DNA of 64,000 nt, taken from NCBI GenBank assembly GCA_001898145.1, contig MKSR01000020.1:1-64000 (forward strand), in the 5' to 3' direction. The notes below the pieces were generated by a model. The model was given only the letters and a program-made list of their open reading frames with translations, was not told the DNA's origin and did no database searches. Below are positions 46,988-64,000 of this stretch, piece by piece. Positions within the stretch are counted from its first letter, which is position 1. Every line of letters begins with the position of its first letter. This stretch comes from Dyadobacter sp. 50-39 (lineage in GTDB: Bacteria; Bacteroidota; Bacteroidia; Cytophagales; Spirosomataceae). The translations under genes were made by a program, and so were the position numbers.

Positions 46988-48499
46988 ATGTTGAACGGCC
47001 CATTTGTTCTGGCGATCGATCAGGGTACGAGTAGTACGAAAACCGTCATTTTTAATGAGAAGGGCAAGATTGTCGCGCGCGGAAGCGAGCCTTTGAAAAC
47101 CATGTACCTCGACGAAGGGTTGGTGGAGCAGGATCCGCAAGAGATTTATCAGAACGTGCTGGCATCGGTCGGTCAATGCATTGCCGATTTCGTGGCGAAA
47201 GAGGGACGTATAGAGGATATCCGTTCGTGCGGTATCTCTAACCAGCGCGAAACCTTTGTGCTATGGGGTGAAACGGGAGAGCCGCTGCATCCGGCGGTTG
47301 TCTGGCAATGCAAGCGCTCGACAGGTGTGTGCGAGCAGCTACGTGCCGACGGAATGGAAGACCTGATCCGCCAAAAGACCGGCCTGCTGGCCGATCCCTA
47401 CTTTTCGGGCTCTAAGGTAATCTGGCTCAACCGCTATCATGAAAAGGTGAAGCAAGCCATTGCGGGAGGCAATGCATTTTTTGGGACGGTGGATACTTGG
47501 CTGTTGTACAAGCTGACCGGCGGAGCGGCGTACCTGACCGATCATACGAATGCGTCGCGCACGCTGTTCTTTAACCTTGAAACCCTTTCATGGGACGAAG
47601 AGCTGATCCGGCTATTTGGATTGAATGGACTGCATTTGCCTCATATCCAGCCTTCTTCCTCGTACTTTGGCGAAACTGATTTTGCAGGTTTGCTGCCACA
47701 GGCCGTTCCGGTAACGGCAATGATCGGCGACTCGCACGCGGCGGCATTCGGCGAAGGATGTTTTGGGCCGGGCATCGCGAAGGCTACGCTGGGCACCGGT
47801 TCTTCGATCCTTATGAATATCGGTCCTGAACCCAAACCTTCGCATCAGGGAATGGTGACGACGATCGGTTGGAGCGCCGGGAAACATGTGGAGTATGCAT
47901 TGGAGGGTGTGATCGTCACTTGTGGCGCAACGATCGAATGGCTCCGTACCCACCTCGGATTGTTCGGTGATGTGAAAGAAACGGAGGCAATGGCGCGGTC
48001 GGTAAAGGATAGCGGCGGCGTTTACCTGGTACCTGCGTTCAGCGGCCTGGGTGCCCCACACTGGGATATGAGCCGGAAGGCTTCGATTACCGGCCTGACA
48101 TTCCATTCCAACAAGAACCACATTGTGCGTGCGGCGCTGGAATCGATTCCTTTTCAGGTCAAGGATGTAATCGTTGCGATGGAATCGGATACGGGTATCG
48201 CCTTGCAGGAATTAAAAATTGACGGAGGGTTAACCTCCAATAATTTCGTCGTACAAACGCTCGCCGATTTGCTGGAAAAACCGGTCGTTAATCTCGGATT
48301 TCCGGAAGTTTCCGCTTTGGGTGCCGCATATTTATCTGGTTTATATTCAGGTGTTTATCCAGATATTGACTATTTGAAAAAATTGAGTGAAAACCATTTA
48401 TCAGTGTTGCCTGCCGGAAATGATAACGCAGTAAAGGCCGCTTATAGCGGCTGGCAGGAAGCGCTTGCGGTAGTGCCTCAGGTTTTGATAACGAATTGA
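46988..48499 (+). CDS. FGGY-family carbohydrate kinase, glycerol-kinase-like with altered substrate motif
   Basis: A 503-residue FGGY kinase. ATP-domain features are AIDQGTSSTK at the start, VDTWLLYKLTGG, ATLGTGSS and IDGGLTSNNFV. Glycerol-kinase substrate positions are partly kept: NQRETF, VVWQCKR and DPYFSGSK. The segment GDQQAALFG of glycerol kinase reads GDSHAAAFG here, replacing Gln246 (E. coli numbering), a substrate contact. A C3-C5 polyol or ketose (glycerol, erythritol, apulose) is possible; apulose kinase ApsK is also FGGY. A possible -7 (TAGCTTTG, 46907-46914) precedes it. The next gene follows after 2 bp, so it is in an operon with a glycosidase. Confidence 0.85.
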   Translation: MLNGPFVLAIDQGTSSTKTVIFNEKGKIVARGSEPLKTMYLDEGLVEQDPQEIYQNVLASVGQCIADFVAKEGRIEDIRSCGISNQRETFVLWGETGEPLHPAVVWQCKRSTGVCEQLRADGMEDLIRQKTGLLADPYFSGSKVIWLNRYHEKVKQAIAGGNAFFGTVDTWLLYKLTGGAAYLTDHTNASRTLFFNLETLSWDEELIRLFGLNGLHLPHIQPSSSYFGETDFAGLLPQAVPVTAMIGDSHAAAFGEGCFGPGIAKATLGTGSSILMNIGPEPKPSHQGMVTTIGWSAGKHVEYALEGVIVTCGATIEWLRTHLGLFGDVKETEAMARSVKDSGGVYLVPAFSGLGAPHWDMSRKASITGLTFHSNKNHIVRAALESIPFQVKDVIVAMESDTGIALQELKIDGGLTSNNFVVQTLADLLEKPVVNLGFPEVSALGAAYLSGLYSGVYPDIDYLKKLSENHLSVLPAGNDNAVKAAYSGWQEALAVVPQVLITN

Positions 48500-48501
48500 T
48501 C

Positions 48502-50088
48502 ATGAAGTACTTTTTGATAATTGTTGCCCTTGTTTTTCTCGCCGTTCCGGTATCCGCGCAAGATCGCATCGAGCGGTGGGAGCGGTTCGAAGTGGTGCTC
48601 CCGGGGCCCCAGGCTGGGAATCCGTTTGCAGATGTCAGTTTTTCGGCTGAGTTTTCAAACGGTGTAGAGAAGGTCAGGGTAGATGGGTTTTACGATGGAA
48701 ACGGTCAGTATAAGGTGCGGTTCATGCCCCGGAAGACGGGTGAGTGGAAATACAAAACATTCAGCAACAGCAAATCGCTCAATGGTAAAACCGGTTCATT
48801 CAGCTGCGTAGAGCCAGGTAAGGATAATCACGGGCCTGTGCAGGTAGCGGATACGTATCATTTTAAGTATGCCGATGGCAAACGCTACTATCCTTTTGGA
48901 ACCACGTTGTATGCGTGGACTCATCAGCCCGAAGGATTGGAAGAAATCACGCTCAAAACACTCGAAAATGCACCGTTCAACAAGGTGAGGATGTGTGTTT
49001 TCCCAAAATATTACTCGCGTGTCGAAAATGAACCGCCATTTTACCCATATGTAAAAAAATCGGAAACTAAGGATGCGAAAGGGAAGCCAAAGTTCGAATG
49101 GGATTTCTCCCGGTTCGAGCCTTCGTTTTTTCAGCATCTGGAAAAGCGGATCGACGATTTGAAAAAACTTGGAATTGAGGCCGACGTGATCATTTTACAT
49201 CCATACGATAAGGGTCACTGGGGCTTTGACAGTCTTGGTAAGGACAACGATCTCAAATACATCCGTTACCTGACGGCGCGCCTGGCCTCGTTCCGTAACG
49301 TGTGGTGGTCGATGGCCAACGAATTCGATTATGTAAAGACCAAGCCGCGGGCCGACTGGGACATTTATACCAAGGCAGTGGTGAGTGCGGATCCGTACGG
49401 GCATCTGTGTTCAATCCATAACGGGAGTGTTTACTATGATAACTGGAAGCCGGAGTTTACACACGTGAGTATCCAGAACGGCTCTGCTGTCGAGGATTTT
49501 GGTCGTGCCACATTGCTCAGAGATGTATTTTTCAGGCCGATGGTGTATGATGAAGTGTGCTACGAAGGTGATTTGCAGCAGCGTTGGGGGCATTTGAGCG
49601 GTGAGGAAATGACAGAGGCATTCTGGCAAGGAGTTATCGCAGGTACCTATGTGACGCACGGAGAAACTTATAAAAATGCCGGCGATACGATTTTTTGGGC
49701 GAAAGGAGGCCGGCTTATCGGCAGCAGTCCTGCCCGGATCGGTTTTCTGAGAAAGATATTGGAAGCTGCGCCGGGGCCATTGGAGTTGTCGGATCCGTGG
49801 AAGGACCACCATACGTCGCGCGCGGATAGCAGTTATTACCTGGTTTACTTCGGAAAAAATATGCAATCCGAATGGGAATTCAGTCTACCGCGGAAGGGCG
49901 GGCCCAAGGCCGGACGGAAGTTCAAAGTAGAGGTTATTGATACGTGGAATATGACCGTCGACGAGCGCCCGGAGGTTTTCGAAATCGCCGAGGCGGCCGA
50001 CTATCGGATTTATGACAAAAATAGGACCTCGATCCGCTTGCCGGTTGCCCCATACCTGGCGCTGCGGATCAAGGAATATCGGGAATGA
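48502..50088 (+). CDS. DUF5060/DUF4038-type secreted glycoside hydrolase
   Basis: A 528-residue protein with a signal peptide (cleavage near VSAQ). Residues ~22-100 form the DUF5060 beta-sandwich (RWERFEVVLPGPQAGNPFAD, 'YKVRFMPRKTGEWKYKTFSN'). A TIM barrel follows ('DGKRYYPFGTTLYAWTHQPE', 'FNKVRMCVFPKYYS'). Clan-A-like residues are E274 in SMANEFD (acid/base candidate) and E351 in MVYDEVCYE (nucleophile candidate). A C-terminal DUF5605-like sandwich closes the protein. These families are related to GH140 but differ in domain layout. It starts 2 bp after the FGGY kinase stop, suggesting that released sugar is phosphorylated by the kinase. Substrate unknown. Confidence 0.85.
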   Translation: MKYFLIIVALVFLAVPVSAQDRIERWERFEVVLPGPQAGNPFADVSFSAEFSNGVEKVRVDGFYDGNGQYKVRFMPRKTGEWKYKTFSNSKSLNGKTGSFSCVEPGKDNHGPVQVADTYHFKYADGKRYYPFGTTLYAWTHQPEGLEEITLKTLENAPFNKVRMCVFPKYYSRVENEPPFYPYVKKSETKDAKGKPKFEWDFSRFEPSFFQHLEKRIDDLKKLGIEADVIILHPYDKGHWGFDSLGKDNDLKYIRYLTARLASFRNVWWSMANEFDYVKTKPRADWDIYTKAVVSADPYGHLCSIHNGSVYYDNWKPEFTHVSIQNGSAVEDFGRATLLRDVFFRPMVYDEVCYEGDLQQRWGHLSGEEMTEAFWQGVIAGTYVTHGETYKNAGDTIFWAKGGRLIGSSPARIGFLRKILEAAPGPLELSDPWKDHHTSRADSSYYLVYFGKNMQSEWEFSLPRKGGPKAGRKFKVEVIDTWNMTVDERPEVFEIAEAADYRIYDKNRTSIRLPVAPYLALRIKEYRE

Positions 50089-50280: not shown

Positions 50281-50952
50281 ATGAAACCAGTGACCCTAGG
50301 CCTGATTCACACTTCGGCTACGCTTGTGCCGATCTTCCAGCAACTGTGCAGCGAACATCTGCCGGGCATAAATGTATTCAATATTGTCGACGACAGCCTG
50401 ATCAAGGATGTGATCGCCAAAGGCAAACTTGCGCCCGGTACGGCACGTCGTGTGGTGGACTACGTAGCCTCGGCAGAAGCAGCCGGGGCGGATCGTATTT
50501 TGGTAACCTGTTCGTCCATCGGAAGGGCTGTGGAAGCAGCGGCGGCGCTTTCGTCCGTTCCCGTGCTTCGCGTCGACCAGCCGATGGCCGACCTGGCCGT
50601 TTCGAAAGGAACGAGGATTGGCGTGGTAGCGACCTTGCCCACTACGCTCGAACCTACTGTGGACCTCGTGAGGCGCCGTGCGCAGGTCGCCGGCAAAGAA
50701 ATTCAGCTGACCAGTAAACTCTGCGAAGGGGCATTTGACGCGCTTATGGGAGGAAATCCGGGCCTGCACGACCAGATGGTAGCGCAGGCATTGCGCGAAC
50801 TGTCTGCACAGGTGGATGTGATCCTGCTCGCGCAGGCATCTATGGCACGGGTAGTGGATACATTACCGGAAGCCGAGAAAACGGTCCCCATTATTGCCAG
50901 CCCGCCTGAGGCAGTCCGCTATCTTGCGTCCGTGTTCAATAAGGGGTTATGA
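50281..50952 (+). CDS. Aspartate/glutamate racemase-superfamily protein
   Basis: A 223-residue protein. The two catalytic-type cysteines are in VTCSSIG (~C81) and SKLCEGAFD (~C142), the expected positions of the Asp/Glu racemase fold, with repeated alpha/beta halves. The superfamily includes amino-acid racemases, hydantoin racemases, maleate isomerase and decarboxylases. The stop overlaps the downstream BASS transporter by 4 bp (ATGA), so the two proteins are probably made together. The pairing suggests that the substrate of this enzyme, perhaps an acid such as a hydroxy-, oxo- or amino-acid, is imported or exported by the transporter. Function is unassigned. Confidence 0.85.
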   Translation: MKPVTLGLIHTSATLVPIFQQLCSEHLPGINVFNIVDDSLIKDVIAKGKLAPGTARRVVDYVASAEAAGADRILVTCSSIGRAVEAAAALSSVPVLRVDQPMADLAVSKGTRIGVVATLPTTLEPTVDLVRRRAQVAGKEIQLTSKLCEGAFDALMGGNPGLHDQMVAQALRELSAQVDVILLAQASMARVVDTLPEAEKTVPIIASPPEAVRYLASVFNKGL

Positions 50953-52274
50953 TGTTGATAATCAGGAAAATGTTCCTTGCTCTGGCGGGGATCGGTGTGG
51001 TGATGGCAGTCTTTGGCTGGTTGACACAGGTCGACGAGCTTTTCAGGGCAGCAGCACTCGGGACGGCGATTGGCTGGGCTGTGGGCATTGGCGCGGTTCC
51101 GTCTTTGCGGGGATACCAATACACCGCCTGGATCGCAGCGGCCGTTGTGGCAGGAATGACTTACCCGCAATCTTTTTTGCACATCGGCGATTTTGATCTC
51201 CGCAACAAGTGGCTCATTCTCATTGTGGTACAGTTTGTGATGTTTGGTATGGGTATTCAAATGAGCCTGCGCGACTTTTCGGAGTTAGCCACCTCCGGCA
51301 AAGGAGTTTTGGTGGGGCTATGCAGTCATTTTACCATTATGCCGCTCACTGGTTTTGCATTAACTAAGATCTTTCATTTTGATCCGGAAATCGCGGCGGG
51401 GATCATTCTGTTGGGTTCTTGTTCAAGCGGTTTGGCTTCCAATGTAATGGTTTACATCGCCCGTGCGAATTTGGTACTTTCCGTGGCCGTCACCGCTATG
51501 ACTACACTGGCGGCGCCTTTCCTTACACCCTTTCTGATGAAAATCCTGGCCGGAACGCTCATTCAAATCCGTTTCCTGGACATGATGATGGAGATTATCA
51601 AGATCGTCATTGTCCCCATCGGCGCCGCCTTGATCCATGACTTTTTGAAAACGGCATCGCCGCCGGGAAAGAGAAACGTTTATAGTATAGCGTCAGTTTG
51701 TCTGGCGTGGCTTGGCGCTTTGCTGTTAGGCTTGTGGTCGTGGCTCTCCGGGGTTGTTTCGGAAACGGTATTGCAATCGCTGGAAGTGTTGTCGTTCTTT
51801 GCCGGCGCGGTACTGGTCGGGTTGATGTACCATATGATCACCCTGTCATTTCGAAATCTCGATCGGTACATGCCCTATGTTTCGATGTTTGGCATTGTTT
51901 ATTTCACGACCGTCACCACCGCTGCCGGCCGCGATAACCTGATGCAGGTCGGATTTTTGCTCTTTTTCGTATCGGTCGTGCACAATTCGGCGGGGTATTT
52001 CTTTGGTTATTGGCTAAGCAGGCTGCTCGGTTTGGATAAGGCCTCTGCCCGGACCATGGCGTTTGAAGTAGGTTTGCAGAACGGAGGAATGGCCTCGGGA
52101 CTGGCCGGTACGATGGGGAAACTGGGCACTGTGGGGCTTGCTGCCGCTGTTTTCAGCCCATGGATGAATATTTCCGGGTCGATTTTGGCTAATTATTGGC
52201 GGAAGCGGGAGGCTGATAGCCGGATTATTGCTGTTACATCCCTCCGGGATTTCAAGGGAAGTGAGGAAGCATGA
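50949..52274 (+). CDS. BASS-family sodium:bile-acid/organic-acid symporter
   Basis: A 441-residue membrane protein with about ten to twelve helices. BASS (BART superfamily) landmarks are present: FGMGIQMSLRDF, the unwound-helix motif LGSCSSGLASNVMVY (usual GxxPGGxxSN) and FEVGLQNGGMASGLA (usual ExGxQN). It is longer than ASBT-type proteins because of two extra N-terminal helices. Substrates in the family include bile acids, pantoate, pyruvate and other organic acids. Translational coupling to the racemase-superfamily gene suggests an organic acid. It lies between the kinase operon and the OiaK/OiaX-like pair. Confidence 0.88.
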   Translation: MMLIIRKMFLALAGIGVVMAVFGWLTQVDELFRAAALGTAIGWAVGIGAVPSLRGYQYTAWIAAAVVAGMTYPQSFLHIGDFDLRNKWLILIVVQFVMFGMGIQMSLRDFSELATSGKGVLVGLCSHFTIMPLTGFALTKIFHFDPEIAAGIILLGSCSSGLASNVMVYIARANLVLSVAVTAMTTLAAPFLTPFLMKILAGTLIQIRFLDMMMEIIKIVIVPIGAALIHDFLKTASPPGKRNVYSIASVCLAWLGALLLGLWSWLSGVVSETVLQSLEVLSFFAGAVLVGLMYHMITLSFRNLDRYMPYVSMFGIVYFTTVTTAAGRDNLMQVGFLLFFVSVVHNSAGYFFGYWLSRLLGLDKASARTMAFEVGLQNGGMASGLAGTMGKLGTVGLAAAVFSPWMNISGSILANYWRKREADSRIIAVTSLRDFKGSEEA

Positions 52275-53846: not shown

Positions 53847-55229
53847 CTATCTGCCATTCGCAGCCACTTCAAAATATTCCTCCCCGCCAACCTGCCCACC
53901 TTTAAAATTAACTTCCAACCCATCCGCAGGCGACTCAGGTGCGAATGCGCGGCAAAGTGGCGCGCCGGGGAACAGCGGGGCGATCATTTCGACAGCTTTG
54001 ATACCGAGCGCCCGTGCTACCACGCCCGAAGTGTCGCCGCCGGCGATGATAAGGCGCTGGACGGGGATGGTGGCAATTACCTGCCGGGCAATTTGACCCA
54101 GCACGTGGCCGTAGAGGGAGGAAGTGAGGCTTTGGATTTCAATGGATGATAAACCCTTGTTTTTAAGTATGTTGTTTGCCTCGATAAATCGCTCGTCCTG
54201 TGTGCTTCGCGCGGTGTGGATGATGGTGTTTTTGCCATTTTTGATGAGTCGGACGGCCTTTTCGACTTCACTCAAAAAGGCCGTATCATGCGTTCCTGCC
54301 GCGATAGCGGGTGTGTCGAGCGTGATCTCTTCGAAGCCGTGGGCTAATGCGTAGTCGATTTGCCGGGCGGTGACAGGGGAACAGCTGCCGGAAACTACCA
54401 GTAAGGGTGAAGCATTGCCGGGTTTGGGCCATTGCGTACGCTTTTGGGTGATCCCTTCTGCATTCCAGAGGCCGGTCAGGGCCATTTCTACCCCGGATGA
54501 GCCTACTGAAAAGTGCGGAGATTCGCGGTTTCCGTACGGGTCGATCAGTGCGCCGATACCGGGCATCTGGTGTTCGTAAAGTGCGTCGAAAAGAACAATG
54601 TCGTTTTCTTTGAAAATGCTTGCGAGCGATGCGGCCGTTTCTTCATGCGGCTTTTCTATTTGTAAAATATCAATCAGCCCGCATGATTTTTGAGTCTGCT
54701 TGCTCAAATGCAGCCGCAGATCGCTCTCGTCGGCTGGCGTGGTCGGGTGTTTGCTCATGCTCGGGTGGCGGTCGAGGCGGTGGATGTGTCCATTACTGCC
54801 GATACCCATCCGGGCAAACAGGTTCCCGAATGCGCAATAGCGTCCTAGGGAAGGCGCTGCTACGACCAGGGATATGAATTTGGGGTCAAATACCTCTGCA
54901 CCAATGTCTATGGCCTTGCCAATGCTGCCGATCGCATGGGACGAATCGAACGTGGAGCATACTTTGTAATGAATATGCCGCGCGCCCGTATTTTTGAGCA
55001 TTTCGAATGCGGGCCGGAGTGCCGTCTCCATTTGGGCGGGCGTCATGGCCCGCGTCATACCCGCGATCCCGAATGCGCGTATGTGCGGGAAGCGTGCCAG
55101 ATCGTCAGCGGTCGGAGGCTCAATGAACAGGGCAGTGCGGATTCCCGCTCGTTCGAGAATTTCCAGGACGTCGGTGGAACCGGTGAAATCGTCGCCGTAG
55201 AATGCCAGCAGCAGGTCGTTTGGGGTCAT
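53847..55229 (-). CDS. Four-carbon acid sugar kinase family protein (DUF1537), OiaK-like candidate
   Basis: A 460-residue protein with both DUF1537 domains. The N-terminal substrate domain starts LLLAFYGDDFTGSTD (Asp13-Asp14 typical). The C-terminal nucleotide domain has LLVVSGSCSPVTARQI, IIAGGDTSGVVARALG, PLFPGAPLCRAF and LEVNFKGGQVGGEEYF. Characterised members phosphorylate threonate, erythronate, 2-oxotetronate or 3-oxo-isoapionate. The start overlaps the RuBisCO-like gene's stop by 4 bp, so the two are translationally coupled. A kinase coupled to a RuBisCO-like protein is the arrangement described for OiaK/OiaX of D-apiose catabolism. Substrate is inferred from context. Confidence 0.88.
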   Translation of the reverse strand: MTPNDLLLAFYGDDFTGSTDVLEILERAGIRTALFIEPPTADDLARFPHIRAFGIAGMTRAMTPAQMETALRPAFEMLKNTGARHIHYKVCSTFDSSHAIGSIGKAIDIGAEVFDPKFISLVVAAPSLGRYCAFGNLFARMGIGSNGHIHRLDRHPSMSKHPTTPADESDLRLHLSKQTQKSCGLIDILQIEKPHEETAASLASIFKENDIVLFDALYEHQMPGIGALIDPYGNRESPHFSVGSSGVEMALTGLWNAEGITQKRTQWPKPGNASPLLVVSGSCSPVTARQIDYALAHGFEEITLDTPAIAAGTHDTAFLSEVEKAVRLIKNGKNTIIHTARSTQDERFIEANNILKNKGLSSIEIQSLTSSLYGHVLGQIARQVIATIPVQRLIIAGGDTSGVVARALGIKAVEMIAPLFPGAPLCRAFAPESPADGLEVNFKGGQVGGEEYFEVAANGR

Positions 55230-56488
55230 GCGCGGTCGAATTGCAGTTTTCCAAACTTTTCAACGGATTGCGCAAACTCCGGATATTGCCTTGCCGCATC
55301 GTGGAGTGTGAGGCCGTTCACCGCAGCTTGCCAGGCTTGCTGCAATGCGGTAACGCCTGCCGCAGCTCCGCCGGGATGCGCCATAATGCCTCCTCCGGCC
55401 ATGTAGAGCAAGTCGGTGGTTGAGGTACGCCGGTAGGTTTCGAATGCCTGTCCGCCCCATTGACCCGAAGAAACCACCGGCAAAACGGGCTTATCCAGCG
55501 GCGCGGGATCGAGGCATGAGGCGATAGACCGTACCACCGAATCGTCCGATTCCCAGAATTTGTTCTGAATTCCATTGACATGCAGCTGGTCGACCCCCGC
55601 AAGTCTCCAAAGTTTCTGGTATGCCGGAAATTCGATTCCCAGCAGCGGGTGGCGGTTCAGCATACCCCAGCCATTGCGGTGGCCGTGAATGGCGAGCTCC
55701 CCGAGGTCACAGATACGCTTGGAGCCTGCCAGGCCAACGCTGTTGAGGCTGATCATCGCGCAACTCCCGCCCGATCGCACGATGTGTTCATATTTCCGGA
55801 GCATGGGGTCCATTTCATCGCTGATATTGAACGCGTACATGACTTTTTTGCCCGTCCGGTCAGCGTGGCGGTTGATCACCTCCATCACGGCATGCACACG
55901 TTCCTCAAAGTGGGAATTGGCTGTGGACGCCATGAGTTCGTCGTCCTTGATGAAGTCGATGCCCGCCTGCGCAAGCGTCCCGACTATTTCGGCTGTTTGG
56001 GCAGGTGTGAGGCCAACGCTGGGCTTGATAATAGTGCCGATGAGCGGACGTCCGGTGGCGACGTTGGTAAGCGACCGGCACCCTTCGATGCCGAACTGCG
56101 GGCCGCGGTATGCGGCCGCATATGACGCGGGAAAATGAATGTCCATCAGTTTCAGCCCTGTAAACTGCGTGATTTCGTAAAGGTTTCCCTGTAAGGTCGA
56201 TACAAGGGTAGGGAGGTTATGGCCAAAATTTTCAACCGACCACGATACTTCCACCAATGCCCGGCGGTAAAGGCCATCCGGCGACGCGGCACCGGGCATT
56301 GCCGGTTCTGAAACCGTTTCCAGCGGCTCAATGTGCTCCACGCGGGCGGCAAACCGATTTTTGAGTTCTTCGGTTTCGCCTGGTACGGCTACGAACGTCC
56401 CGGACGATTGCTCTCCGGCCAGTACTGCTGCCGTTTTGTCCAATGCATAGGGCGTCTCAATGTAGTACCGTGCGGTAATTCTTTCCAT
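55226..56488 (-). CDS. RuBisCO-like protein (form IV), OiaX-like decarboxylase candidate
   Basis: A 420-residue RuBisCO large-chain homologue. Equivalents of key RuBisCO residues: Lys155 in GTIIKPSVGLTP, Lys181-Asp182-Asp183-Glu184 in DFIKDDELM (carbamate and Mg ligands kept), His268/His270 in AIHGHRNGWG, Lys310 in IQNKFWE and SSGQWGG near 340. Loop 6 and phosphate-site segments differ from true RuBisCO, so CO2 fixation is unlikely. Form IV proteins coupled to DUF1537 kinases include OiaX, which decarboxylates 3-oxo-isoapionate 4-phosphate to a C4 sugar phosphate. The ATG at 56488 has an AGGAA Shine-Dalgarno. Divergent from PUL 2. Confidence 0.88.
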   Translation of the reverse strand: MERITARYYIETPYALDKTAAVLAGEQSSGTFVAVPGETEELKNRFAARVEHIEPLETVSEPAMPGAASPDGLYRRALVEVSWSVENFGHNLPTLVSTLQGNLYEITQFTGLKLMDIHFPASYAAAYRGPQFGIEGCRSLTNVATGRPLIGTIIKPSVGLTPAQTAEIVGTLAQAGIDFIKDDELMASTANSHFEERVHAVMEVINRHADRTGKKVMYAFNISDEMDPMLRKYEHIVRSGGSCAMISLNSVGLAGSKRICDLGELAIHGHRNGWGMLNRHPLLGIEFPAYQKLWRLAGVDQLHVNGIQNKFWESDDSVVRSIASCLDPAPLDKPVLPVVSSGQWGGQAFETYRRTSTTDLLYMAGGGIMAHPGGAAAGVTALQQAWQAAVNGLTLHDAARQYPEFAQSVEKFGKLQFDRA

Positions 56489-56731
56489 TTATTTCCTGGT
56501 AATCTATTTTATGCTTACGAATGTAGTGCTTTTTAATTCGATTTAAAGGCTATTTACTGGCTGGTTTACGCGTCATTCAGTGACAAAAACTGGTTTTTAA
56601 CAATTTTTTATAAAAATAAGATAGAAAATATTTATAAATGTTTTTTTTAAAATAAAATTGTTCCTACTTTTCGTAAAAATTAGAATATAAAAGAAAAAAA
56701 AAGAAAATCACTACTTCCCTAATCGTTTGAA

Positions 56732-59700
56732 ATGTTTATGAAACAACTCTTACGCATCATTCTGGTATGCCTGCTGGTAACCCCGGCCGTCCATGCGCAG
56801 ACGCTGTCCGTGAAGGGCAGGGTAACGGGTGTGAGCGATGCCGACCCGCTTCCGGGTGTGAGCGTCGTGATCAAGGGCACGCAGCGCGGAACCACCACCA
56901 ATTCGGACGGTGCGTTCCAGATCGAAGTGCCTGATCAGGCTACGGTGCTGGTATTCAGCTTTGTAGGTTACAAATCTGTGGAAGAAACAGTCGGTGCGCG
57001 TGCCGACATCGGCGTGAGGCTTGTGCCCGAAAACAAATCGCTGGAAGAGGTGGTAGTGGTTGGTTACGGAACGCAGAGCAAGCGGGCGGTGACCGGCGCC
57101 GTGATTTCGGTGAACTACGACAAATTCAAGGACCGTTCATTCAGTAACGTCAGTCAGTCGCTGGCAGGGACGTTGCCCGGCGTCAACATATCGCAATCGC
57201 AGGGAGCACCGGGGGCTTCGCCGGTGATCAAAATCCGGGGGATCAGCTCCATTACCGCTGGTACCAGTCCGCTGATCGTCGTGGACGGCGTGCCGCTGGA
57301 AAATTTTAACCTGAACCTGATCAACCCGCAGGATATCGAGTCCATCGAAGTATTGAAAGATGCTTCATCGGCAGCGATTTACGGTTCGCGCGGATCGAGC
57401 GGGGTAATTATCGTTACCACCAAAACCGGTAAGCCGGGTAAAGTGAATGTGAGTGCCAATGTCGAATACGGTTCTCAGAAAGTAACGCGCCGCGTGAAAA
57501 TGATGGACGCGCAGCAGTATATCGAAACTTATATCGATGCTAAAAACAACGCATGGACGGCCCAGGGCGGAAAAGCCAACGATCCGAACAGTGCCCGGCC
57601 AGCCACATTGCGCATTCCGGAGGATTTCACCACCAATCCGCAGCAATTCGGAAAAGGTACCGACTGGCAGGACGTGATGTTCCGGACCGCGCCTTCGTTC
57701 AATGCGCAGGTGACCGTGGCGGGAGGCACCGAAAAGACGCAGTATATGTTCTCGGGCGCTTACCTGGACCAAACAGCGGTGCTCGACGCCAACTATTACA
57801 AACGTCTCTCACTTCGTTCGAACCTGAAAACACAGATCTCGAAACGCCTCAGCGCGGGATTGAACATTGGTATAACCTCCATTTTCGATCGCACGGAGGG
57901 AACGCAGGGCAAAAGCGATGTGATCAGCCTTGGTTTGCAAAGCGACCCTATTTTCCCGGTTTACAACGAAAACGGCAACCTGGGCTTCCGCGACCCGAAC
58001 TCGACCTGGTTCCGGTTTACGCAATATGCCGATATGAACCTCTGGCATCCCTACTCGCTTACCCGCGAGGTGGACAAGGGGCGGAAGTCCTTCAACACGC
58101 TGGCGACGGGCTACCTGGAATATGAACTCACCGACGGCCTGCGGTTCCGTACCAGCCTGAGCGGCAACCTGTACAACATGCGCAGCAATTTTTACTGGAA
58201 TGACAAGCAGAAATATGGCTACTCCGCCGTGCTGGCAGCACAGGGCAATGCAAGCGACGCATACATGCTGAACTGGCTGAGCGAGAATACATTGACGTAT
58301 GATAAGAAGTTCGGAGAGCATGCATTCACCGGGCTGCTGGGCTACACCAGCCAGAAGCAGCGCGACGAAACAATGTACGTGGCAGCCAATAACTTCCCGA
58401 ATGACCTCGTGCACACGCTCAATGCGGGCACGGTGACGGCGGGGAATACGACAGCCAGTGAATGGTCGCTGTTATCGTACCTCGCGCGGGTTCAGTATAA
58501 TTTCAAAAACCGCTATTTTCTCACGGGTGCGCTGCGCCGCGATGGCATGTCGCGCTTCGGGGAGAATAACAAATGGGGTTATTTTCCGTCTGTTTCAGCG
58601 GGTTGGTTGATTTCCGATGAAGCGTTTATGGCCGGGGCCACCGCGGTGAACAATCTGAAACTCCGGGCTAGCTACGGTGTGACCGGCAACAACCAGATCC
58701 CGAACTACGGGGCAATCAGCCTGTTGGCTGCGGCGCAGTATGTGAATGGTTCGAACCTGGCCAATGGATTGAAGGTTAGCAGCCTTGCAAACCCCAATCT
58801 GAAATGGGAGAAGACCAATCAGTTCAACGTAGGTGTGGACCTGGGCCTCTTCAATAACCGCATCAATCTTTCTGCGGAATATTACAACTCGCTCACCCGC
58901 GACATGCTGCTGTTTGTGCCGGTGCCGGACATTACCGGTTTCTCGACCCAGCTGACCAATATCGGCAAAATGCGTAACCGCGGTGTAGAATTGAATATTT
59001 CAACCAAAAACCTCACGGGCGCATTCACCTGGACTACTGATTTCAACATTTCCAGGAACCGGAATAAGGTACTTCAACTCGGCCCGGGCAACGCACCGAT
59101 CCAGTATGTCGATAACGTCGTGACCGTGCGTACCGAAGTAGGCCAGCCTGTTTCGAACTTCTACGGCTACATTTTCGACGGGGTTTTTAAAAACCAGGCG
59201 GAAGTCGACGCTTACCCGCACCATGCGAGCACTACGCCGGGCGACCCGAAAGTGCGTGACGTGAATGGCGATGGGAAGATCAGCGATGCGGACCGCACGA
59301 TCCTGGGCAACTACCAGCCGAATTTTATCGGCGGTATCACCAACACGGTGGGCTACAAAGGCTTTGAACTGTCGTTCCTCTTCCAGGGCTCGTTCGGCGG
59401 AGAGATTGCCAACAACAATGTCCGTTACCTCGGTACCTGGGACAATGGCCGCAACTTTTTTGCCGATATGTACAACTACTGGCGATCGGAGAGCAATCCG
59501 GGCGATGGCCGGCATTTCAAACCGTCGGTGAACTACCTCGGGTTGCAGAAGCAGTTTTCTTCTTACTGGGTCGAGGACGCTTCGTTCGTGCGCCTGCGTA
59601 ACGTGCGCATATCGTACTCGCTACCGGCCAAATGGGTTTCCAAGTTGAAAGTGAGCGGCGCGCGGGTGTATGTGAATGCGGAGAACGTGCATTTGTGGAG

Positions 59701-59884
59701 CAAATACATTGGCTATGACCCCGAGAATACGACTTACGGAACAACGTCCTATTCTTCGAGCATGGAGACTTCGAGCTCGTACAGCAGCGGCAATGCACCC
59801 GTTCCCGGGGCATTTCAGGGAGTAGATTATGGGTCCTATCCGTTGCCGCGGGTGATCACTGTTGGGATTAAGGCTGATTTTTAA
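56732..59884 (+). CDS. SusC/RagA-family TonB-dependent outer membrane receptor, PUL 2
   Basis: A 1050-residue protein (a second ATG is at codon 3). Signal peptide ends VHAQ; carboxypeptidase-regulatory-like domain (LSVKGRVTGVSDADPLPGVS), SusC box EEVVVVGYGTQSKRAVTGAV, plug (PLIVVDGVPLE, SIEVLKDASSAAIYGSRGSS) and C-terminal barrel ending 'PLPRVITVGIKADF'. It carries the canonical VVDGVP plug motif, unlike the PUL 1 receptor. The 243-bp spacer to the divergent RuBisCO-like gene is very AT-rich and presumably holds both promoters, though no consensus element was found. It is the outer membrane importer for the apiosidase-linked locus. Confidence 0.96.
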   Translation: MFMKQLLRIILVCLLVTPAVHAQTLSVKGRVTGVSDADPLPGVSVVIKGTQRGTTTNSDGAFQIEVPDQATVLVFSFVGYKSVEETVGARADIGVRLVPENKSLEEVVVVGYGTQSKRAVTGAVISVNYDKFKDRSFSNVSQSLAGTLPGVNISQSQGAPGASPVIKIRGISSITAGTSPLIVVDGVPLENFNLNLINPQDIESIEVLKDASSAAIYGSRGSSGVIIVTTKTGKPGKVNVSANVEYGSQKVTRRVKMMDAQQYIETYIDAKNNAWTAQGGKANDPNSARPATLRIPEDFTTNPQQFGKGTDWQDVMFRTAPSFNAQVTVAGGTEKTQYMFSGAYLDQTAVLDANYYKRLSLRSNLKTQISKRLSAGLNIGITSIFDRTEGTQGKSDVISLGLQSDPIFPVYNENGNLGFRDPNSTWFRFTQYADMNLWHPYSLTREVDKGRKSFNTLATGYLEYELTDGLRFRTSLSGNLYNMRSNFYWNDKQKYGYSAVLAAQGNASDAYMLNWLSENTLTYDKKFGEHAFTGLLGYTSQKQRDETMYVAANNFPNDLVHTLNAGTVTAGNTTASEWSLLSYLARVQYNFKNRYFLTGALRRDGMSRFGENNKWGYFPSVSAGWLISDEAFMAGATAVNNLKLRASYGVTGNNQIPNYGAISLLAAAQYVNGSNLANGLKVSSLANPNLKWEKTNQFNVGVDLGLFNNRINLSAEYYNSLTRDMLLFVPVPDITGFSTQLTNIGKMRNRGVELNISTKNLTGAFTWTTDFNISRNRNKVLQLGPGNAPIQYVDNVVTVRTEVGQPVSNFYGYIFDGVFKNQAEVDAYPHHASTTPGDPKVRDVNGDGKISDADRTILGNYQPNFIGGITNTVGYKGFELSFLFQGSFGGEIANNNVRYLGTWDNGRNFFADMYNYWRSESNPGDGRHFKPSVNYLGLQKQFSSYWVEDASFVRLRNVRISYSLPAKWVSKLKVSGARVYVNAENVHLWSKYIGYDPENTTYGTTSYSSSMETSSSYSSGNAPVPGAFQGVDYGSYPLPRVITVGIKADF

Positions 59885-59893
59885 GGTTTTAAT

Positions 59894-59948
59894 GCCACGA
59901 AGACATCGCAGCAGCGCACCGCGAAAAGTACGCGAATGCCTTCGTGGC
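59894..59948. repeat. Inverted repeat in the SusC-SusD gap of PUL 2
   Basis: Perfect 9-bp arms GCCACGAAG (59894-59902) and CTTCGTGGC (59940-59948) enclose 37 bp containing GCAGCGCACCGCGA (59911-59924), a 14-mer shared with the tandem repeat before the PUL 1 lyase. It could form an mRNA stem-loop tuning SusC versus SusD levels, or be a REP-like element. Confidence 0.6.
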
Positions 59949-59962
59949 TAAAAAAGAAGAAA

Positions 59963-61375
59963 ATGAAAAAATATATCAAATCCATAGCCCTGGCGGCGCT
60001 CATTGCAAGCACTTGGAGCTGCAAGGACTCATTTCTGGAACTGGCACCGGTATCCAACCCGAGCGCGGAGAATTTTTACAAAACCAAGTCGGATTTCGAC
60101 ATCGCCACCAACGCGGCGTACAACACGCTTTACACCGTGTACCACCCGCAAGGCCCCGTTTCTTACGCGGGTGAGCTGATGTCGGATAATGTCACGATCT
60201 TCAATATTTCCGGTAACCAGGCTGACAAATGGCAATTTCGCGACTACACGCTCGCGCCGGCCAACACGATGGTATACCAGTTCTGGCAGGACTTTTACCG
60301 GTCGATCTACAACCTGAACATCATTCTCGACAAAATCCAGAATGCGGATCTCGACGCGACCTATAAGGCGCAAACGCAGGGTGAAATGCTTTTCCTGCGC
60401 TCGCTGTACTACTATAATATGGTGCAGCTATGGGGCGATGTGCCACTGGTAACCCGCCCTGTGAGCGCCGCCGAAGCCTACGACATTCTGCGCACACCGG
60501 TGACGGAGGTCTACGCGCAAATCACGAAAGACCTGGCGGAGGCCAAATCCAAACTACCCGCCACATCGACCATCTCCGGACGGGCAACCAAAGGTGCCGC
60601 GCAGACGCTGCTTGGAAAAGTATACCTCGCGATGGGCGACAAAGCCAACGGCGTGAAGGAGCTCAAAGAGGTTTACGATAGCAAGCAATACGACCTTGTG
60701 CCGTCATACGCATCGCTTTGGGACCCAAAAACAAAGAATACCAAGGAGTCGATCTTTGAAATTCAGTATCTGGGCGGCTCGGCGACAGCACCTTACAGTA
60801 ATTATTACCTCGAATTCTTCCCCAATTCCAATGCACTGGGCTTCTACGGTGCGGGTATGAACCAGGTGGTGGAGGATATCTGGAATGAGTACGAAAAGGG
60901 CGACGGCCGCCGCGAAGCTTCAATCGACACGGGATTTACGGACGCCAAAGGCAACTTTACCAAGGCCAAATTTCCTAAAAAATGGCAGGATAAAACCGCG
61001 CCGCTGATCAACCAGAACATCGCGGCCAATAATAATTTCATGGTACTGCGCTATGCCGACCTGCTGCTCCTGCTTTCCGAGGCTACGGGCGATCCAGTTT
61101 ACCTCAACCAGGTGCGCAAACGGGCCGGATTGCCATTGTACGGGGAAGCCGGTTACCCGGCGAAGTACAACACGGTAGCGCTGGCCGTCGAGCACGAGCG
61201 CCGCGTAGAACTCGCGTTCGAATTCCATCGCTGGTTCGATTTGAAAAGGACCAATCGGGTGATCGATATCCTCACCGCAAAGGGCAAGCCCGTAACCCAG
61301 AATAAGCTGGTGTTCCCGATCCCGAACATTGTCCGGGACCAGAATGCCAGAATCACGCAGAATGCAGGGTATTAG
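59963..61375 (+). CDS. SusD/RagB-family glycan-binding lipoprotein, PUL 2
   Basis: A 470-residue lipoprotein from the ATG at 59963; an earlier in-frame ATG (59936) adds a Lys-rich stretch and lies in the inverted repeat. Lipobox STWSC. Family motifs: 'GEMLFLRSLYYYNMVQLWGD', VPLVTRPV, 'FMVLRYADLLLLLSEATGDP' and 'EHERRVELAFEFHRWFDLKR'. It is shorter than the PUL 1 SusD (584). It pairs with the SusC upstream and precedes the GH140-type enzyme by 1 bp between stop and start, so it belongs to the same transcript and should capture the apiose-bearing or related glycan. Confidence 0.96.
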   Translation: MKKYIKSIALAALIASTWSCKDSFLELAPVSNPSAENFYKTKSDFDIATNAAYNTLYTVYHPQGPVSYAGELMSDNVTIFNISGNQADKWQFRDYTLAPANTMVYQFWQDFYRSIYNLNIILDKIQNADLDATYKAQTQGEMLFLRSLYYYNMVQLWGDVPLVTRPVSAAEAYDILRTPVTEVYAQITKDLAEAKSKLPATSTISGRATKGAAQTLLGKVYLAMGDKANGVKELKEVYDSKQYDLVPSYASLWDPKTKNTKESIFEIQYLGGSATAPYSNYYLEFFPNSNALGFYGAGMNQVVEDIWNEYEKGDGRREASIDTGFTDAKGNFTKAKFPKKWQDKTAPLINQNIAANNNFMVLRYADLLLLLSEATGDPVYLNQVRKRAGLPLYGEAGYPAKYNTVALAVEHERRVELAFEFHRWFDLKRTNRVIDILTAKGKPVTQNKLVFPIPNIVRDQNARITQNAGY

Positions 61376-61376
61376 A

Positions 61377-62747
61377 ATGCTCAGACTAATGAATCGTAAA
61401 CTATTAGCACTTCTTTGTGCCGGTTTTATCGCCGGCACAATGCCTGTTTATAGCCAGCAGCTCAAAATTTCGGAAAACAGACGGTTTTTTACGGACGAGG
61501 AGGGGAAGCCCTTCTTCTGGCTGGCCGACACGGGTTGGCTGCTTTTCAACCGGCTGACCCGCGAGGAGGCGGATCGCTACCTGACGGACCGGCAGCAAAA
61601 GGGCTTCAATGTGGTACAGGTAATGGTAGTGCAGGCATTGCGTACGGTAAATGTGTATGGCGATTCGGCGTTGAGCAACCATGATCTGAGCAGGCCGAAG
61701 GTGACAGAGGGCAATGCTTTTGAAAATCCGGAGGCATACGACTACTGGGACCATGTCGATTACGTCGTCGGGAAGGCGGCCGAAAAGGGTATTAAACTCG
61801 GGATGGTGCCCATTTGGGGAAATGCGGTGAAGAACGGGCGCACCAGTGCTGGGCAGGCGAAGGCCTATGCACAGTTTCTGGCCCGTCGCTACCGTGGCCG
61901 GCCGAATATCGTCTGGCTCAATGGCGGGGACATTCAGGGCGATGTTGTTCCGGAGGTATGGGAGGCGATAGGTACCACATTGCGGGCCGAAGACGCCGGT
62001 CACCTCATTACTTTTCATCCGTTTGGCAGAATGCAGTCTTCGAAATGGTTTCACGATAGCTCGTGGCTGGATTTCAATATGTTCCAGTCGGGGCACCGCA
62101 CTTATGCTCAGGATCATGAAGCCAAAGATCTTCGGTATGGCGAGGACAACTGGCGCTACGTCGAAGCCGACTATGCGCGTACGCCGGTGAAACCGGTGCT
62201 GGACGGCGAGCCGTCTTACGAAAACATCTGGCACGGCCTGCACGACAAGACATTGCCTGTGTGGACGGCCGACGATGTGCGGCGGTATGCTTACTGGTCG
62301 GTGTTTGCGGGTGCGTGCGGGTTCACGTACGGGAACAACGGGGTGATGCAGATGCGCTACGCGCGGGACCCCAAACTGCCATCCTGGGAGGAGGCTATTC
62401 ATGATCCCGGCGCGGGCCAGATGATGCATTTGAAAAACCTGATGCTCTCGAAGCCCTATTTTGAACGTGTGCCGGACCAGTCGCTGATTGCTGAAAACGG
62501 GGAGCGGTATGATCGCTTGCTGGCCACACGCGGGAGAGATTATGCATTGATCTACACCTGGAATGGCAGGCAGATGAAAGTCAATATGGGTAAAATAGGC
62601 GGTTCCAAAGTGAATGCCAGCTGGTATGACCCGCGCACCGGCGAAACAAAAGTTTTAGGAAAAGTTGAAAACAGAGGAGTTAAAACATTTAACCCGCCCG
62701 GGGAGGTTAGAAACGGGAACGATTGGGTTTTGGTGTTGGAAAAATAA
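61377..62747 (+). CDS. Glycoside hydrolase family 140-like protein (apiosidase type)
   Basis: A 456-residue protein from the ATG at 61377 (61389 is also possible); signal peptide with cleavage near VYSQ. DUF4038/apiosidase TIM barrel: 'RFFTDEEGKPFFWLADTGWL', 'GFNVVQVMVVQALRTVNVYG', 'NIVWLNGGDIQGDVVPEVWE' and 'PVLDGEPSYENIWHGLHD'. D185 (NGGD) and E278 (DGEPS) align by position and spacing (~93) with the acid/base Asp and nucleophile Glu described for the GH140 endo-apiosidase BT1012. A DUF5060-free, collagen-binding-like C-terminal sandwich closes the protein. It would release D-apiose-linked oligosaccharides from pectin side chains. Confidence 0.9.
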   Translation: MLRLMNRKLLALLCAGFIAGTMPVYSQQLKISENRRFFTDEEGKPFFWLADTGWLLFNRLTREEADRYLTDRQQKGFNVVQVMVVQALRTVNVYGDSALSNHDLSRPKVTEGNAFENPEAYDYWDHVDYVVGKAAEKGIKLGMVPIWGNAVKNGRTSAGQAKAYAQFLARRYRGRPNIVWLNGGDIQGDVVPEVWEAIGTTLRAEDAGHLITFHPFGRMQSSKWFHDSSWLDFNMFQSGHRTYAQDHEAKDLRYGEDNWRYVEADYARTPVKPVLDGEPSYENIWHGLHDKTLPVWTADDVRRYAYWSVFAGACGFTYGNNGVMQMRYARDPKLPSWEEAIHDPGAGQMMHLKNLMLSKPYFERVPDQSLIAENGERYDRLLATRGRDYALIYTWNGRQMKVNMGKIGGSKVNASWYDPRTGETKVLGKVENRGVKTFNPPGEVRNGNDWVLVLEK

Positions 62748-62751
62748 CGCT

Positions 62752-64000
62752 ATGCAAAAAGAATTGACAGGAATGCTGGCCCTATGCCTGGCAGTGGGCG
62801 CGGCCAATGCGCAGGATACGATCCGCTATACGGGCAAAACACTCGTGAATGTCGATTACCATCACGGCCAGCTGAGCCCGGCTATCGGCGTGCATTCGTA
62901 CCAGACGTTGCGTGCCAACCGGACCGATGCGAGCAGGGATTCGGCTATCACCTGGACCTATAACCACGCGCCGATGCTGGCGTACTGGAATGGTACATTT
63001 TATCTGAATTACCTCAGCAATCCGGTAGGAGAGCACATTCCGCCCGGACAAACGCTTTTGCAGACCTCTAAGGATGGTAAAACCTGGACCAGGCCTGTGG
63101 CGATATTCCCGCCTTACAAAATTCCCGACGGTACCCGGAAGGAGGGGCATCCGGGCGTGGCCAAAGATTTGTATGCGGTGATGCACCAGCGCATGGGTTT
63201 TTACACATCCAAAACCGGCCGGCTGCTCACATTGGCCTATTTCGGCATGGTACTGGACGCGAAAGACGATCCGAACGACGGCCACGGGATCGGTAGGGTG
63301 GTAAGGGAGATCAAAAAGGATGGAACCTTCGGCCCGATCTATTTCATCAGGCATAATGCTTCCTGGAAACAGCCTTCGGACTATCCGATGTATACCGAAA
63401 GCAAGGACAAGGGCTTCATTGAAGCTTGTGATGAGCTGCTGGGCAATAAACTGGTAACGCAGCAATGGGTCGAGGAGGCCGATCGTAACGATCCGCTGAT
63501 CAGTTTGAAAGGAGAATACAAGGCGCTTAGCTACTATCACTTGCCGGATGGCCGGGTGGTGGGCCTTTGGAAGAATGCATTGACCAGTATCAGTAAAAAT
63601 GAAGGCAAAACGTGGCTGTACAACCCTAAACGGGCGCCGGGTTTCGTGAATAGCAATGCCAAAATATGGGGGCAGAAGACGTCCGATGGTAAATATGCGA
63701 CGGTTTACAATCCATCCGAATTCCGCTGGCCGCTCGCGGTTTCAGTCAGTGACGATGGGTTGAATTACAAAAACCTGCTGCTTGTGAACGGCGAGATCAC
63801 TTCGATGCGGTATGGCGGCAACTATAAGTCTTATGGCCCGCAATATGTTCGAGGCATTTCCGAAGGCGACGGTACGCCGCCCGACGGCAATCTCTGGGTG
63901 ACTTACAGCATGAACAAAGAGGACATCTGGGTCTCGGAAATACCCGTGCCCGTACGTGACAGGGCCGAAAAGCACGCCGCCGACCGTTTTGCGCAGATGC
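62752..64000 (+). CDS. Secreted BNR/sialidase-fold protein, C-terminus cut by window edge (partial)
   Basis: Starts at ATG 62752, 4 bp after the GH140-like gene, and stays open for 416 codons to the window end. Signal peptide MQKELTGMLALCLAVGAANA. Sialidase-like blades: 'HAPMLAYWNGTFYLNYLSNP', Asp-box-like 'SKDGKTWTRPV' and SKNEGKTWLY, 'SVSDDGLNYKNLL' and 'GNLWVTYSMNKEDIWVSEIP'. It is only distantly similar to the BNR protein of PUL 1 and has a different N-terminal region. It should be a periplasmic or surface exo-glycosidase acting with the apiosidase. Length and C-terminal domains cannot be judged. Confidence 0.82.
   Translation, partial: MQKELTGMLALCLAVGAANAQDTIRYTGKTLVNVDYHHGQLSPAIGVHSYQTLRANRTDASRDSAITWTYNHAPMLAYWNGTFYLNYLSNPVGEHIPPGQTLLQTSKDGKTWTRPVAIFPPYKIPDGTRKEGHPGVAKDLYAVMHQRMGFYTSKTGRLLTLAYFGMVLDAKDDPNDGHGIGRVVREIKKDGTFGPIYFIRHNASWKQPSDYPMYTESKDKGFIEACDELLGNKLVTQQWVEEADRNDPLISLKGEYKALSYYHLPDGRVVGLWKNALTSISKNEGKTWLYNPKRAPGFVNSNAKIWGQKTSDGKYATVYNPSEFRWPLAVSVSDDGLNYKNLLLVNGEITSMRYGGNYKSYGPQYVRGISEGDGTPPDGNLWVTYSMNKEDIWVSEIPVPVRDRAEKHAADRFAQM

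Follow-up and report, generated by a model that had tools for sequence, protein, structure and literature searches.

A candidate aceric acid catabolic module with a RuBisCO-like protein at a rhamnogalacturonan II locus of Dyadobacter sp. 50-39

The module and its surroundings

We analyzed a 64,000-nucleotide stretch of DNA from the soil bacterium Dyadobacter sp. 50-39 (contig MKSR01000020.1, positions 1 to 64,000 of the forward strand; the whole stretch is referred to here as the window), in which a DUF1537-family sugar acid kinase and a RuBisCO-like protein (RLP) are encoded with a 4-bp overlap, divergent from a row of genes for SusC-like, SusD-like, GH140-type, and BNR proteins. A first-pass annotation of this DNA had reported both the overlapping pair and the divergent row, and both are present; the main Pfam domain of each gene scores far over its cut-off, and the observed gene set is therefore not a chance effect. 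The interval drawn there, 53847..64000, contains the pair and the polysaccharide utilization locus (PUL), yet it omits half of what appears to be a four-gene module, since an Asp/Glu-racemase-superfamily protein (50281-50952) and an SBF-family transporter (50949-52274) lie outside it and still within the window. The annotation had joined a locus for rhamnogalacturonan II (RG-II) to an OiaK/OiaX-like pair with a probable role in degrading a branched sugar freed from this polymer, and that much stands. Its assignment of the pair to apiose does not: searches of the host genome turned up neither ApnL nor ApnO, a transketolase-type apiose operon adjoins the locus, and the constant partner of the RLP is an aceric acid hydrolase. 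From the gene content and linkage described below, we think it fairly likely that the four-gene module catabolizes aceric acid rather than apiose.

RG-II is the most complex plant pectin, its side chain B contains aceric acid, and enzymes that cut it are known; the work on RG-II in Bacteroides thetaiotaomicron (BT1003, BT1012, BT1020) is reportedly about glycosidases. The host locus resembles the B. thetaiotaomicron system in its aceric acid hydrolase, apiosidase-like, and BT_1020-like proteins, and in a control genome, Bacteroides ihuae, the aceric acid hydrolase model matches and the OiaX model does not. RG-II is composed of 13 sugars according to PMC12168206. The genes of the module and of the adjoining PUL are as follows.

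53847..55229, minus strand: DUF1537-family sugar acid kinase, 460 amino acids (aa), SBD_N and NBD_C; proposed kinase of the ketose C1 hydroxyl
55226..56488, minus strand: RLP, 420 aa, RuBisCO_large (PF00016, 220 bits); proposed decarboxylase of an aceric-acid-derived ketose 1-phosphate
50281..50952, plus strand: Asp/Glu-racemase-superfamily protein (PF01177); proposed isomerase of the pathway
50949..52274, plus strand: SBF-family transporter, PanS-like (PF01758, 110 bits); proposed importer of the branched acid
56732..59884, plus strand: SusC-like TonB-dependent receptor (TIGR04056, 924 bits, over the cut-off)
59936..61375, plus strand: SusD-like glycan-binding lipoprotein (PF14322 and PF07980)
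61377..62747, plus strand: GH140-type apiosidase-like enzyme (PF13204, Apiosidase, 389 bits)
62752..64000, plus strand, running on to G000:C20:64584: BT_1020-like N-terminal beta-propeller protein (BNR; PF24067, 398 bits), start inferred
G000:C20:64584-66647, right of the window: aceric acid hydrolase (GH127; NF049879, 1173 bits, cut-off 950), the next gene after the BNR protein

The aceric acid hydrolase gene lies 8 kb to the right of the RLP gene. The BNR protein, which we take to be GH143-type, extends 584 bases beyond the end of the window. For the GH140-type gene, an ATG start at 61377 would fit the SusD stop better than the listed TTG at 61329.

Co-occurrence of the module with the aceric acid hydrolase

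A search of 150 genomes of the host family with the OiaX model (E <= 1e-80) matched 18, all under the curated cut-off, and up to 20 kb was examined around the 17 RLPs other than that of the host (three on contigs shorter than 5 kb; one locus, L038, is an apiose-type exception). In these 17 family loci, tblastn recovered the RLP 17 times, the racemase-like protein 13 times, and the aceric acid hydrolase, the kinase, and the SBF transporter 12 times each, the kinases including that of L038 (41% identical). The racemase-like protein occurs in 16 of the 150 genomes, all 16 of which have an RLP. A second set was built by comparing an alignment of 12 racemase-like proteins with named genomes and keeping the best 80 of 521 relatives; around these 80 racemase loci, the SBF transporter was found in 80, the kinase in 78, the RLP in 76 (one copy being a fragment cut by the contig end), the hydrolase in 38, and ApnL and ApnO in none. 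The two sets are not independent because they share at least five genomes (four Runella contigs; G185 represents the same places as G059). Together these patterns suggest that the RLP, the kinase, the racemase-like protein, and the SBF transporter form one catabolic module.

Gene order, as opposed to adjacency, was scored in the 76 racemase loci with all four genes. The hydrolase, RLP, kinase, racemase-like protein, and SBF transporter follow one another in that order on one strand in 26 loci, two of them from Opitutales (Verrucomicrobiota); the hydrolase comes last in 10 loci, is on the opposite strand in 2, and is not in the flank in 30, and in the remaining 8 the pair has the reversed orientation seen in the window, again with no hydrolase in the flank. 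On a plasmid of Rufibacter tibetensis typed as mobilizable (NZ_CP012644.1, locus L079), the four-gene module sits among GH28, pectinesterase, and polysaccharide lyase genes; no hydrolase is annotated within the 20 kb around it, which was the part of that genome searched, and this locus was left out of the hydrolase counts. The window itself has one further gene between the SBF transporter and the kinase, a TsiV-like gene at 52564-53502 on the minus strand (type VI immunity for VRR-NUC, PF11876, 163 bits), for which tblastn gave no match in the 17 family loci or in the 80 racemase loci, among them those of other Dyadobacter.

The association with the aceric acid hydrolase extends beyond the flanks. 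The hydrolase is present in 17 of the 18 RLP genomes of the family versus 28 of the 132 without RLP (Fisher's P = 1.5e-9, with relatedness ignored), and the sole RLP genome lacking it, G024, carries an ApnL-like gene (325 bits against a cut-off of 750) and an ApnO-type gene beside its RLP and kinase. It lies immediately beside the RLP in 6 of the 17 family loci. Of the 42 racemase loci without the hydrolase in the flank, 41 belong to genomes that could be searched whole, and all 41 genomes contain it at scores over the 950-bit cut-off, so that the hydrolase is found in 79 of 79 testable genomes of racemase loci, 38 times within the flank (up to 10 kb); among these 38, the L205 and L215 copies are cut by a contig end and the two Opitutales copies score 892 and 896 bits against 950. 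It was also the commonest glycosidase query of those tested in the 80 racemase loci, where the window-type GH140 enzyme was found near only 7. Other RG-II-type genes in these loci encode DUF5703 (31 loci) and GH78 (19 loci) proteins, and 13 loci have a protein like L031:14148-15281 that matches the start of NF049877, a beta-glucuronidase/beta-L-arabinofuranosidase model.

A plasmid of Croceibacterium (Sphingomonadales; L240:6175-10528 and L246) encodes GH127-like, RLP, and kinase proteins in overlapping genes, with GH28, fucosidase, and galactosidase genes and a TonB receptor in the same locus. We did not count it as support, because its GH127-like protein reaches 87 bits with the aceric acid model and ABC and Gfo/Idh genes lie nearby.

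Protein families and the two apiose routes

The AlphaFold2 model of the racemase-like protein has a mean pLDDT (predicted local distance difference test) of 92, and its 50 listed matches (template modeling scores of 0.64 to 0.79, normalized to query length) are, by title, without exception racemases of glutamate, aspartate, hydantoin, or allantoin; among solved folds, those of glutamate, aspartate, and hydantoin racemases match best. With the roles of the catalytic cysteines presumed to be those of glutamate racemase, the first is kept as Cys77, and the position of the second is Gln185 in 12 of 12 aligned sequences; Cys23 and Cys148 are also invariant among the 12. The protein thus has the fold and the first catalytic Cys of the Asp/Glu racemase superfamily and lacks the pair of cysteines, and it further differs from these enzymes in its genetic linkage to an RLP and to a kinase for sugar acids. 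Its counterparts in seven named Dyadobacter genomes are 88 to 95% identical to it, and that in an eighth is 75% identical. The best NCBIfam model for the SBF transporter is PanS (210 bits against a cut-off of 400).

The kinase, which is the host genome's sole match to PF07005 at E <= 0.001, belongs to the DUF1537, or four-carbon acid sugar kinase, family by its PF07005 (SBD_N, 192 bits) and PF17042 (NBD_C, 125 bits) domains, and its best NCBIfam model is OiaK (439 bits against a cut-off of 700). The best model for the RLP is OiaX (503 bits against 700), and its PF00016 domain and Lys-Asp-Asp-Glu motif, presumably the carbamate Lys with Asp/Glu metal ligands, place it in the RuBisCO superfamily. 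These shortfalls were first considered as proof of another function, a use that we rejected: three RLPs in ApnO contexts (Shinella, Microvirga, and G024) score 453 to 473 bits on the OiaX model, and in Shinella, where the pair lies beside ApnO-, ApnL-, and ApsD-type genes, the RLP reaches 472 bits and the kinase 473. Because these three RLPs and two kinases (Shinella and G024) from ApnO contexts also fall below 700, the shortfall is uninformative; RLPs called OiaX in their own records were left out of this scoring. In 90 of 90 racemase-group RLPs the Lys-Asp-Asp-Glu motif is kept, as are the NKF and SSGQW stretches and the IIKPS lysine, which makes decarboxylation at the RuBisCO metal site a plausible activity of the RLP.

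A phylogenetic tree of RLPs, as the first-pass annotation had suggested, was computed by quick search from 58 of 104 gathered rows, including 42 of 88 racemase-group rows; it took every third of the 70 RLP open reading frames from the 80 racemase loci, left out the two Opitutales RLPs, and has a long outgroup branch that makes the root unsure. The 42 racemase-group RLPs fall on one side of a branch (SH-aLRT support 97), and all 7 ApnO-linked rows, including that of the Bacteroidota genome G024, fall outside it; three members of the group, L023, L027, and L037, have no racemase-like gene in the flank examined. The nearest kin of this clade are annotated OiaX proteins, in a group (97) of four OiaX-like rhizobial rows, two of them ApnO-linked, separated from it by a branch of 1.4 changes per column. 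The tree shows the racemase-group RLPs as a separate lineage and by itself decides neither their substrate nor the condition that the first-pass annotation had named as refuting its reading, an RLP in a non-OiaX clade: the ApnO-linked RLPs are scattered over it (five changes), and the annotation of the closest group is OiaX, for which reasons we dropped the tree as proof of another function. Eight clade-specific residues of the RLPs (L23, S84, L99, Q100, N191, Y233, I322, and M363), which were not placed on a structure, were likewise kept out of the argument.

An oxidative pathway for D-apiose that uses OiaK and OiaX was reportedly described by Carter et al. in 2018, a study cited in PMC6302742. 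The host module resembles that pathway in its overlapping DUF1537 kinase/RLP pair, its RuBisCO-type motifs, a branched plant sugar as the proposed starting point, and the same alpha-hydroxy-beta-keto acid scaffold, again as proposed, and in the tree its RLP clade lies closest to annotated OiaX. It differs in having the racemase-like protein and the SBF transporter in place of ApsD, ApnL, ApnO, and an ABC transporter, and in being linked to an aceric acid hydrolase. In a genome-wide search for ApnL and ApnO homologs, a check proposed with the first-pass annotation, the host genome had no match to ApnL (NF049900) at E <= 1e-20 and none to ApnO (PF16896) at E <= 1e-10, limits at which the same models matched 53 of the 150 family genomes for ApnL, all under the cut-off, and 20 of 150 for ApnO. 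The search covered these two enzymes of the first steps, the third, ApsD, being a dehydrogenase of the Gfo/Idh/MocA family, whose breadth prevents assignment from family matches. Of the 18 RLP genomes, 9 have an ApnL-like match, all under the cut-off, and 2 have ApnO, one of them G024; ApnO was found in none of the 49 genomes reached via racemase loci, and the ApnO search controls (14) gave no match in either the 49-genome or the 150-genome search.

Several loci elsewhere pair an RLP with apiose-type genes. A Shinella plasmid combines RLP, kinase, ApnO-type, ApsD-type, ApnL-like, and ABC genes, and on a Rhizobium plasmid a gene annotated as oiaX is accompanied by ApnO and by an RbsB-DUF2291-RbsA transporter. 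Within the host family, the Bacteroidota locus L038 (G024:C2:922900-942899) combines an ABC transporter with ApnL-like, ApnO-type, kinase, and RLP genes and is apparently a genuine oxidative apiose cluster. Another context, in Proteobacteria and haloarchaea (L239, L241, L245, L250, and L081), consists of an RLP, a DUF1537 kinase, a short-chain dehydrogenase/reductase (SDR) or glucose-1-dehydrogenase, and, in most of the loci, a transporter of the TRAP or KDG type, with an aldolase as well in the Haloarcula member; no ApnO lies directly beside the pair in these loci, an ApnO-type gene being found about 5 kb downstream in L239, and this context possibly serves another branched acid.

To the right of the window, G000:C20:68665-78587 encodes a DeoR regulator, a FucI-like isomerase, two transketolase halves, an Sde182-like protein, RbsB, DUF2291, RbsA, and RbsC. 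A comparable cluster lies beside entD and fepA in Escherichia coli SK1144, with a split transketolase, RbsB, DUF2291, RbsA, RbsC, an FGGY kinase, and two SDR genes; passages of PMC13001218, in which SK1144 is not named, place the E. coli apiose cluster beside entD/fepA, describe two putative oxidoreductases that replace apsI, and report growth on D-apiose of strains carrying the cluster. Between the host and SK1144, the transketolase halves are 46 and 43% identical and RbsA, RbsB, and RbsC 35 to 45% identical; blastp gave no match between the two clusters for DUF2291, which was assigned from Pfam, the one SDR tested, or the regulator. The host operon thus resembles the nonoxidative D-apiose operon of E. 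coli in its split transketolase and RbsB-DUF2291-RbsA-RbsC genes and differs in that a FucI-like isomerase and DeoR replace the two SDR genes and the other regulator; an FGGY kinase, 38% identical to that of the E. coli cluster, is also part of the nonoxidative set and in the host is encoded apart from the operon, at 46988. The nonoxidative pathway comprises an isomerase, a D-apulose kinase, and a split transketolase. The window genes concerned, with a neighbor, are as follows.

46988..48499, plus strand: FGGY kinase (PF00370 and PF02782); candidate D-apulose kinase of a separate apiose route
48496..50088, plus strand: DUF5060/apiosidase-like/DUF5605 glycoside hydrolase (Pfam)
43841..46177, plus strand: DUF5703-type protein (PF18961, 384 bits), the frequent module neighbor counted above

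The operon also occurs in genomes that have neither the hydrolase nor an RLP. Among 17 of the 18 genomes with the FucI-like isomerase and without these two (one with a 175-aa fragment was left out), all 17 loci have both transketolase halves with the isomerase, and the other genes follow with RbsB and DUF2291 in 16 loci, RbsA in 15, RbsC in 13, and an FGGY kinase in 9, these last being 51 to 66% identical to the window's FGGY kinase. Apiose in the host thus probably goes via this neighboring operon. The FucI-like protein at its head (L002:5544-7010), whose sole NCBIfam match is the sulfoquinovose isomerase SftI (96 bits against 700), is a candidate D-apiose isomerase. We had considered it as the aceric acid isomerase, given its presence in 16 of 17 hydrolase-linked RLP genomes, and downgraded it because of these 17 of 17 loci with transketolase halves, mostly with ABC genes too, and because it is absent from 11 of the 49 racemase genomes.

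A proposed aceric acid route and its alternatives

Aceric acid (3-C-carboxy-5-deoxy-L-xylose) is a rare branched plant sugar; with a methyl group at C5 and an aldehyde at C1, it lacks a primary hydroxyl before isomerization. In the proposed route, the PUL and the GH127 aceric acid hydrolase would release aceric acid, the SBF transporter would take it up, and the racemase-like protein would shift a proton from C2 to C1, converting the aldose to the 2-ketose HOCH2-CO-C(OH)(COOH)-CHOH-CH3. For this shift we propose a proton shuttle between C2 and C1 that uses a single Cys, for which we know of no precedent. The DUF1537 kinase would then phosphorylate the new primary hydroxyl at C1, the RLP would decarboxylate the alpha-hydroxy-beta-keto acid to a 5-deoxypentulose 1-phosphate, and a class II aldolase of the genome would cleave this to dihydroxyacetone phosphate (DHAP) and acetaldehyde. 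In the apiose pathway the corresponding intermediate, 3-oxo-isoapionate, is HOCH2-CO-C(OH)(COOH)-CH2OH; the CH2OH next to the ketone is phosphorylated by OiaK, after which OiaX removes the carboxyl group. The aceric-acid ketose would have the same scaffold with CHOH-CH3 for CH2OH, so that the kinase and the RLP would act as their relatives do, and the branched ketose 1-phosphate would be close in structure to the carboxylated six-carbon intermediate of RuBisCO. The final split could fall to an aldolase of the fuculose- or rhamnulose-1-phosphate type; the host genome encodes class II aldolases in frames of 236 and 739 aa, the longer of which we take from its length to be a RhaD-type fusion. A split of this kind has been proposed for 5-deoxyribulose 1-phosphate (PMC6302742).

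The genomic context is strong for aceric acid: the sequences show gene content, linkage, co-occurrence, family, and fold, from which the substrate and the steps are inferred. We hold the parts of this reading at different strengths: aceric acid is quite probably the substrate of the module, the order and identity of all the steps as drawn here have a little less than an even chance of being right, and we regard as more tentative still the full picture of an apparently undescribed pathway that combines a cofactor-free, racemase-fold aldose-ketose isomerase, with one Cys and one Gln, and a new RLP clade that decarboxylates a branched ketose 1-phosphate. A number of observations weigh against the aceric acid reading. 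One full-length racemase locus, L194, has neither RLP nor kinase in 20 kb (the other three without RLP are L174 and L195, on contigs shorter than 6 kb, and L204, of 11 kb), and four RLP loci of 20 kb each (L024, L025, L027, and L028) have no kinase, L027 lacking the racemase-like protein and the SBF transporter as well. The hydrolase occurs without RLP in the 28 family genomes counted above, including 9 of the 16 other sampled genomes of the host genus, and its link to the module does not alone single out aceric acid, because any marker of full RG-II use would correlate in the same way. The closest relatives of the RLP clade are OiaX-like, no dedicated aldolase was seen travelling with the module, we know of no sugar isomerase in the Asp/Glu-racemase family, and the absence of the FucI-like protein from 11 of the 49 racemase genomes argues against a general isomerase role for that protein and is no proof of one for the racemase-like protein.

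That the module merely travels with RG-II use, degrading another RG-II acid or a later product while the hydrolase serves as the best marker of full RG-II breakdown, would fit the DUF5703, GH78, and NF049877 N-terminal-type proteins of the racemase loci; we nevertheless consider it unlikely, since the hydrolase is the most frequent glycosidase query tested and adjoins the RLP directly in several family loci, and since aceric acid is to our knowledge alone among RG-II sugars in bearing its carboxyl on a tertiary carbinol, which an OiaX-type decarboxylase requires. We find it quite unlikely that apiose freed by the GH140 enzyme is oxidized to 3-oxo-isoapionate by unlinked or nonorthologous enzymes and then passed to the pair acting as OiaK and OiaX. 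In this scheme the best NCBIfam models of both proteins, the adjoining GH140 gene, the annotated OiaX group nearest to the RLP clade, and the ApnL-like matches of half of the RLP genomes would be accounted for, and the shortfall from the cut-off is compatible with OiaX because the three ApnO-linked RLPs scored share it; against it stand the failure to find ApnL and ApnO in the host genome, the rarity of ApnO in RLP genomes and its absence from those reached via racemase loci, the adjacent transketolase-type apiose operon, the few racemase loci near a window-type GH140 gene compared with the hydrolase, and a racemase-like protein and an SBF transporter that, as far as we know, have no role in the known route. 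Finally, the substrate could be aceric acid and the RLP an OiaT-like transcarboxylase/hydrolase that cleaves the phosphorylated ketose in two, so that no aldolase is needed. The module showed no dedicated aldolase, and a Xanthobacter RLP of the apiose routes performs such a cleavage as a transcarboxylase/hydrolase according to PMC6302742; the best model for the host RLP is the decarboxylase OiaX, in a comparison that included no OiaT sequence, and we consider this variant highly unlikely.

A full-text literature search, largely without subscription papers, found among the papers listed no description of aceric acid catabolism or of the four-gene module. If catabolism of aceric acid by this module is confirmed, a function would be assigned to an RLP clade found in many Bacteroidota and in two Opitutales genomes, and the Asp/Glu racemase fold would gain a role in sugar catabolism. 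Further, the apiose label implied by the OiaK/OiaX-like annotation of such genes would be corrected.

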